In this document: one piece after another, positions 431 to 1,207 of the stretch
Position numbering within the stretch: position 1 is the stretch's first letter
Layout: the number at the start of each line of letters is the position of its first letter
Source: Methylotenera sp.
Lineage (GTDB): Bacteria; Pseudomonadota; Gammaproteobacteria; Burkholderiales; Methylophilaceae
Direction of reading: 5' to 3'
NCBI GenBank assembly: GCA_025359405.1
Contig: JANYGD010000001.1
Location: forward strand, 1 to 32,816
DNA: 32,816 nt
Notes under the pieces: model-generated
Databases searched by the model: none
Told to the model about the DNA's origin: nothing
The model's input: the letters and a program-made list of their open reading frames with translations, nothing else
Translations under genes and position numbers: made by a program

Positions 431-464
431 AAAAAATAAACCCGCTGAATGCTTTCAGCGGGTT
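431..464 (-). terminator. Rho-independent terminator downstream of dsbA
   Basis: 11-bp perfect stem AACCCGCTGAA/TTCAGCGGGTT with 4-nt loop, followed on the minus strand by TTTATTTTTT. Confidence 0.85.
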
Positions 465-482
465 GCCATAAATTAATTAACT

Positions 483-563
483 TTATTTGACAGCGTTATC
501 TTTTGACGGTGCTAATTTTTTAGGCAAAACTTTATTTTTAGTTTTTGCCTTTAATACTTTTTT
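483..563 (-). other. Candidate -1 frameshift extension of dsbA: slippery A_AAA_AAG (557-563) plus 24-aa extension VLKAKTKNKVLPKKLAPSKDNAVK ending at TAA 483-485
   Basis: Minus strand reads GCA AAA AAG TAT TAA in frame 0; in the -1 frame AAA AAA GTA TTA AAG GCA ... GTC AAA TAA is open. Stem AGGCAAAAAC (550-541)/GTTTTGCCT (530-522) starts 6 nt after the heptamer. Confidence 0.45.
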
Positions 564-1207
564 GCTGCGGGTGCCGCTTTTGCAGCTTTATCCTTGCGCA
601 CATTGTCGATAACGTAATCAGCTACTTTTAAGGCTTGTTCGTTACCTCCAGCTTGTGTTGCTGAAGTAAAGTATTTGCCGTCGATTACCAAGGTAGGTAC
701 GCCGGTTGCGCCTGAGGCACGGAAAATCTGTGCGGCGCGGTTAAGGTCGGTGTTAATGGTGAATGATTTAAACGCTTGCTCAACTTTTAATTTATCCAAA
801 CCACTTTGTAGGGCAATCCAATCAATCGCAGCATTTTCATCTGTTGGATTCAAAGTTTTTGTTTTATGAATTGCTTCAAATAATTTCGTATGTAGTTTTT
901 CGCCCACGCCCAAAGTTTCCATGGCGTAAAATGCTTTGGCCATCGGCGCCCAGCTCGGGTTTGGCAAACCTGGCACGCGTTTAAAATAAACATCTTTCGG
1001 CAATATTTTTACCCAAGCATTCAATGGTTCTTCCATGTGATAACAGTGCGGACAACCATACCAAAAAATCTCCATCACCTCGATTTTGGCGGGGTTATCA
1101 GTGGAAATGGGTTGCACAACTGTATCAAACTCGGTGCCTACTTTGGGGGCATCGGCAAAAGCTAATGTACTTAGTGCAAACATTAAAATGGCTAAAAACT
1201 TTTTCAT
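551..1207 (-). CDS. dsbA: Thiol:disulfide interchange protein DsbA
   Basis: Signal peptide MKKFLAILMFALSTLAFA, FWYGCPHCYHMEE (CPHC active site), GVPTLVIDGKY cis-Pro loop. Confidence 0.95.
   Translation of the reverse strand: MKKFLAILMFALSTLAFADAPKVGTEFDTVVQPISTDNPAKIEVMEIFWYGCPHCYHMEEPLNAWVKILPKDVYFKRVPGLPNPSWAPMAKAFYAMETLGVGEKLHTKLFEAIHKTKTLNPTDENAAIDWIALQSGLDKLKVEQAFKSFTINTDLNRAAQIFRASGATGVPTLVIDGKYFTSATQAGGNEQALKVADYVIDNVRKDKAAKAAPAAKKY

Follow-up and report, generated by a model that had tools for sequence, protein, structure and literature searches.

The question raised by this locus is whether the dsbA gene of a Methylotenera species (Methylophilaceae) ends in a programmed -1 ribosomal frameshift site that gives part of the protein a C-terminal tail. 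To our knowledge, few chromosomal bacterial genes use -1 programmed frameshifting. The best-known chromosomal cases, such as dnaX, encode cytoplasmic machinery, and many of the other cases belong to IS elements and phages. A conserved case in dsbA, if true, would add a periplasmic folding enzyme to the genes with a -1 frameshift, and frameshifting would be seen to give some copies of an enzyme, and not others, an extension at the C-terminus. From the comparisons in this work, we consider it very probable that dsbA of this lineage has a programmed -1 frameshift at the gene end that yields a tailed product.

The dsbA locus

The window is the whole stretch of DNA that was analysed, 32,816 nt of Methylotenera sp. 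(GCA_025359405.1, contig JANYGD010000001.1, positions 1-32,816), and belongs to a 202-contig draft assembly. The 0-frame ORF of dsbA is located at 551-1207 on the minus strand and encodes 218 aa. The protein is assigned as DsbA based on the ORF listing, the DSBA thioredoxin domain (Pfam PF01323, E=2e-13, above cut-off), the CPHC active site, the signal-peptide-like N-terminal stretch MKKFLAILMFALSTLAFA, and the nearest solved structures, which are DsbA (3h93, E=2e-41). The DsbA equivalogs of NCBIfam matched only below their cut-offs.

The 3' end of dsbA on the minus strand reads GCA GCA AAA AAG TAT TAA. The heptamer A_AAA_AAG (557-563, minus strand) is in the X_XXY_YYZ phase, and the 0-frame stop TAA (551-553, minus strand) is one codon (TAT) past the heptamer. 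The -1 frame stays open for 24 codons past the heptamer (486-557, minus strand), encodes the basic tail VLKAKTKNKVLPKKLAPSKDNAVK that runs from VLK to AVK, and ends at TAA (485-483). The predicted products are 218 aa in the 0 frame and 217+24 = 241 aa in the -1 frame. A hairpin, AGGCAAAAAC...GTTTTGCCT (522-550, minus strand), which is a probable frameshift stimulator, is located 6 nt past the heptamer and folds with -9.6 kcal/mol alone. The hairpin lacks a U tract. The only good terminator, an intrinsic one with a U tract (431-464, minus strand, with 464-439 as the narrower span), is located past the -1 stop. The first-pass annotation of the window had described the in-phase heptamer, the open -1 frame, both product sizes, the stem-loop, its missing U tract, and the position of the true terminator, and all of these, with the coordinates given, agree with the sequence.

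Distribution of the heptamer and the open -1 frame

AAAAAAG occurs 27 times in the AT-rich DNA of the window versus 20.8 expected. The bare heptamer is common there and a single genome proves little, therefore the dsbA genes were compared across the family. One genome per species was sampled, and 49 loci were taken from named contigs. A dsbA gene was found in 178 of 187 family genomes, and 120 regions were fetched. After duplicates were removed, 140 family loci were scored, and 20 dsbA loci from other families of the same order served as the outgroup.

A_AAA_AAG is in phase at the stop codon in 54 of the 140 distinct family loci. The stop codon follows the heptamer immediately in nearly all relatives, and TAT lies between them in the window. 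The -1 frame, which was defined independently of the heptamer, runs on without a stop for 13 or more codons beyond the 0-frame stop in 51/54 loci with the heptamer versus 14/86 loci without it (Fisher p = 3e-21). Of the 14 open frames without A_AAA_AAG, two are A_AAA_AAA loci whose tails are recognisable, and 12 are stretches without the tail motif. In most relatives without a tail the heptamer is missing too, as expected of a functional pair. Among 462 other ORF ends, which were taken from the sampled loci, one ends with A_AAA_AAG and a stop, and none also has a -1 extension of at least 13 codons. The surprise is the position of the heptamer, not its occurrence. Neither the heptamer nor the tail was found in the 20 outgroup loci. 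A locus from a distant genus (L189, g8) reads GCA AAA AAG TAA, followed by a -1 frame of 22 residues that differs in sequence, which is either an independent gain or chance.

The main alternative in the first-pass annotation was a one-base loss (A7 to A6) through mutation or sequencing error, in which case the tail would formerly have been in frame. Homopolymers are prone to such errors and the window comes from a draft of 202 contigs. However, A_AAA_AAG with an open -1 tail is kept in 51 distinct loci from several genera, and the A6G run followed by a stop recurs in dozens of independent assemblies, closed genomes included. None of the dsbA genes of the family encodes the tail in frame. Judged by the genome sequences, none of the observations that the first-pass annotation named as refuting turned up. 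Therefore, sequencing error is rejected, and an error or recent loss in the window genome is hardly credible.

The predicted tail peptide

Two main types of tail were identified. Type A tails are basic and rich in Lys and Pro, and they are found in g1 (the genus of the window) and g7. Type B tails are aromatic and amphipathic, and they are found in g19. The type A tails, which include the tail of the window, are Lys-rich and often have LP, such as VNQAKTKNKVLPKKVALPKKVK in L057 and VNKAADKIKLPSKLK in L121. The type B tails, such as VTASTHWFKALYQKLFNW and VVEESNWFKTFFAKIFSW, have a conserved peptide. In a few g19 loci the tail is basic but resembles neither type. Clear sequence likeness was not found between type A and type B. 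The tails are basic, with a mean net charge of +5.3 in type A and +1.4 in type B. Type B has a high helical hydrophobic moment, z=+1.9 versus shuffles of the same residues, with no beta signal.

Selection on the tail was tested with 15 independent pairs of close relatives that have equal tail length (two were trimmed) and that were picked regardless of amino-acid similarity. The null placed an equal number of nucleotide changes randomly in 1000 simulations for each frame. In the -1 frame, 72 amino-acid differences were counted versus 104.8+/-4.5 expected (z=-7.2), and 0/1000 simulations were as low. The depletion stays at z -6.7 with a higher transition rate in the null. The same 15 pairs exhibit no depletion in the other frames (0 frame z=-1.1; +1 frame z=+0.8). 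The differences at -1 codon positions 1, 2, and 3 number 55, 37, and 77 (p=8e-4). Judged by these pairs, purifying selection acts on the amino acids of the -1 frame only, which is the pattern of a translated tail. Nucleotide conservation is 0.70 in the tail versus 0.63 in the stretch past the -1 stop and is higher in the tail in 12/23 pairs; this drop is weak and is not the main evidence.

A translated tail might also come from a separate small gene downstream that is translated by re-initiation. Two loci (L074 and L075) have overlapping TAATG starts and L053 has a nearby ATG, but ATG, GTG, or TTG is present within the first six -1 codons of only 6/53 tails, so re-initiation cannot be general. 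Re-initiation also leaves the retention of A_AAA_AAG unexplained, and we regard this explanation as most implausible.

The downstream hairpin

The 88-nt region that includes the hairpin of the window folds with -14.7 kcal/mol (z = -3.0 versus shuffles). Tail-less genes have terminators at the equivalent place (mean shuffle z -2.2), so the shuffle z is unsuited to comparison between classes and synonymous recoding was used. The tails were recoded synonymously with codons of their own class, and the first 40 nt past the heptamer were refolded.

The tail of the window folds better than its synonymous recodings (z=-2.8, p=0.027). The combined z (Stouffer) of type A is -5.8 versus recodings, with related rows counted separately although they are not independent. 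The strongest type A folding z values are from L121 (-3.8), L158 (-3.5), the window (-2.8), L052 (-2.7), and L180 (-2.7), and the excess of hairpin stability in type A is greatest in g1 and g7. The arms of the hairpin co-vary and still pair, with GGCAAAAAC/GTTTTGCC in the window, GGCAAC/GTTGCC in g7, and AGCAGGT/ACCTGCT in L055. No hairpin near the site was found by the recoding test in four type A rows (L054, L059, L060, and L062), and none was detectable by that test in type B (combined z +0.45). A probable stimulatory element within 5-9 nt downstream is present in the window and its lineage and was not detectable in the type B relatives.

The folding and pairing patterns indicate that the hairpin is a real but lineage-bound part of the site (g1 and g7). 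The first-pass annotation had read the locus as a candidate programmed -1 frameshift with a stem-loop. The frameshift reading is supported by the heptamer-tail association and by the frame-specific selection, whereas the hairpin appears to be lineage-specific and absent in type B.

The hairpin also bears on the proposal that no tail protein exists, and that the region is kept as RNA (attenuator, terminator, or sRNA) or that slippage is incidental. The type A hairpin exists, and an incidental frameshift that extends a protein is known from Bacillus cdd (PMC5009743). However, selection acts on the amino acids of the -1 frame and not on those of the other frames, the hairpin carries no U tract, termination proper being placed past the -1 stop, and type B has a conserved peptide without the hairpin. 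The Rfam search gave no family at threshold and only chance matches. An RNA role or incidental slippage is therefore very unlikely.

Codon choice, A run, and lysine tRNA genes

The last two lysine codons are AAA AAG in 51/53 tailed genes versus 9/71 tail-less genes with a terminal Lys-Lys. Genes were counted as tailed only with A6 followed by A or G, which leaves the last base (AAG over AAA as the last codon, 51:2) as the one part of this contrast that does not follow from the definition. Together with the association with the open -1 frame, the contrast indicates that the heptamer is kept across species more than codon choice accounts for. The tail-less genes that end in Lys-Lys have AAA AAA (47), AAG AAA (12), AAA AAG (9), and AAG AAG (3). 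The A run of the 53 tailed genes is A6 in 49, A7 in two, A8 in one, and A9 in one. A Shine-Dalgarno-like tetramer upstream, counted regardless of spacing, is present in 29/53 tailed and 32/96 tail-less genes. In E. coli, A_AAA_AAG has been reported to rank in the top three heptamers by efficiency (PMC4066793).

The same protein would result from transcriptional slippage, where RNA polymerase adds an A in the run and the A7 mRNA is read in frame. The run is longer in two tailed loci (L178, A9G; L077, A8G), and most type B genomes encode both lysine tRNAs, a set that has been linked to polymerase slippage in Thermus dnaX (PMC5009743). However, 49/53 runs are exactly A6, which is short compared to the An runs (n>7) of a published survey (PMC3711429) and below the homopolymer of about eight or more expected for transcriptional slippage. 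A7 should also slip better, yet AAG is preferred over AAA by 51:2, and the type A hairpin is under selection at the spacing of a ribosomal stimulator. The A6 run and the choice of AAA AAG thus favour ribosomal over transcriptional slippage. We infer from these patterns that the ribosome slips, not RNA polymerase, and transcriptional slippage is unlikely as the general source of the tail. The runs of L178 (GCAATACCAAAAAAAAAGTAG) and L077 (GCTAAAAAAAAGTAA) are long enough for polymerase slippage, and a switch of mechanism is possible in these two loci.

It has been suggested that tRNA-Lys(CUU) pairs tightly with AAG and disfavours ribosomal slippage (PMC5009743). Only tRNA-Lys(UUU) was found in the window genome, which is an incomplete draft, and the closed g1 and g7 genomes agree. 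The tRNA-Lys(CUU) pattern is absent in 13/15 g1 genomes and in all g7, g15, and g2 genomes, and it is present in most g19 genomes (type B) and in many other genera. Its presence is not sorted with the tail, as it is absent in most g1, in g7, and in the tail-less g15 and present in most g19. Most g19 genomes have tRNA-Lys(CUU), therefore the efficiency in type B may be low or the mechanism there is less certain. The tRNA-Lys(CUU) gene exhibits repeated loss within this one family. The lineages differ in both the lysine tRNA set and the hairpin, which makes the family a natural experiment on the requirements of A_AAA_AAG.

Gain and loss of the tail

The tree was constructed from the body of dsbA, with the last 15 codons excluded. 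The heptamer and tail are clustered on the tree, where tail presence requires about 18 changes. Among tree-independent pairs of which one member has the heptamer and the other does not, tail and heptamer go together 7:0 (median p 0.016). With about 18 changes on the tree, the tail is evidently not essential. The tree fits both a single origin followed by many losses and a history of several gains.

Five g19 loci (L124, L167, L131, L140, and L174) exhibit apparent recent loss of the tail, the heptamer, or both, and may serve to date this decay. L167 has kept the heptamer, and its -1 frame now ends with KKVT. In L124, which reads AAAAAGG, the heptamer is gone and only KKVTEPTH is left of an apparent type B tail. 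Two loci in the genus of the window (L064 and L066) have A7 and short -1 frames. The gains, losses, and swaps of tails across about 180 genomes are material on how such sites evolve.

Proposed mechanism and role of the tail

The compared sequences themselves show four things, namely the heptamer, the conserved -1 ORF, its frame-specific selection, and its association with the heptamer. In the mechanism that we propose from them, most ribosomes would end at the 0-frame stop and yield plain DsbA. A fraction would slip back one base on A_AAA_AAG, where both lysyl-tRNAs would re-pair to AAA AAA. The slippage would probably be aided by the nearby stop and, in the lineage of the window, by the hairpin 6 nt downstream. 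The slipped ribosomes would add about 15-30 residues up to the -1 stop. A minority of DsbA would thus carry a C-terminal tail that is basic here and both basic and amphipathic in the sister lineage.

The slippage efficiency and the role of the tail are what we infer beyond the sequences. In the simplest reading, the tail would hold DsbA on the periplasmic face of the membrane, so that soluble and tethered forms would come from one gene; we give membrane tethering of the tailed DsbA about an even chance. The tail may instead be a degradation tag, or it may bind anionic polymers of the cell envelope, above all in type A. Since type A and type B tails have no clear sequence in common, to assume one function for both would be guesswork. 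The wider idea that one dsbA provides soluble and tethered oxidases through a conserved frameshift, with the slippery site as the fixed device and the tail interchangeable between lineages, is put forward tentatively, as slightly less probable than its opposite.

Comparison with known systems

Full-text literature searches gave no relevant paper on dsbA, or on Methylotenera, with ribosomal or programmed frameshifting. In the portions of text available, dsbA is not mentioned in the GeneTack survey, whose supplementary tables may hold it as an unlabelled cluster, or in the 2016 review.

The -1 frameshift of E. coli dnaX is similar to that of dsbA in its heptamer A_AAA_AAG, the hairpin about 6 nt downstream, the presence of only tRNA-Lys(UUU) (as in the lineage of the window), and its location in a chromosomal gene. 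However, the shift in dnaX occurs mid-gene and shortens the protein (gamma), whereas the shift in dsbA bypasses the stop and lengthens it. As a positive control, dnaX of the family was negative: no in-phase A_AAA_AAG was found in the gene from five genomes (L277, which is the dnaX of the window's genome, L276, and L278-L280), and judging from these five genomes the bacteria of this family seem to be without the E. coli dnaX shift. The dnaX of L278 has an A-rich run with an early -1 stop. In phage T7 gene 10A/10B, a -1 shift at the 3' end produces a minor form that is extended at the C-terminus, but unlike dsbA the gene encodes a capsid protein and has a different site.

The IS3-family transposases use the same class of heptamer (A_AAA_AAG or A_AAA_AAA) and also produce a longer -1 fusion (PMC4066793). 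There, two ORFs within a mobile element are fused, whereas the shift in dsbA puts a tail of 15-30 residues on a housekeeping enzyme. Bacillus subtilis cdd is similar in having a -1 shift in a metabolic gene that extends the protein (PMC5009743). The site of cdd is CGA AAG and has been called incidental (PMC5009743), whereas the site and tail of dsbA are conserved and under selection.

Two systems are comparable with the proposed product and not with the recoding. Neisseria meningitidis, a betaproteobacterium, has the membrane lipoproteins DsbA1 and DsbA2 beside the soluble DsbA3 (PMC3526765). Membrane-bound and soluble DsbA are thus present in one cell, as proposed for the dsbA frameshift, but they come from separate genes and have a lipid anchor, whereas here one gene would provide the C-terminal tail by recoding. 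PBP5 of E. coli is a periplasmic protein that is held on the inner membrane by a C-terminal amphipathic helix of 18 residues (PMC2909392). This anchor is a model for the type B tail, although it is encoded in frame and is present on every PBP5 molecule.
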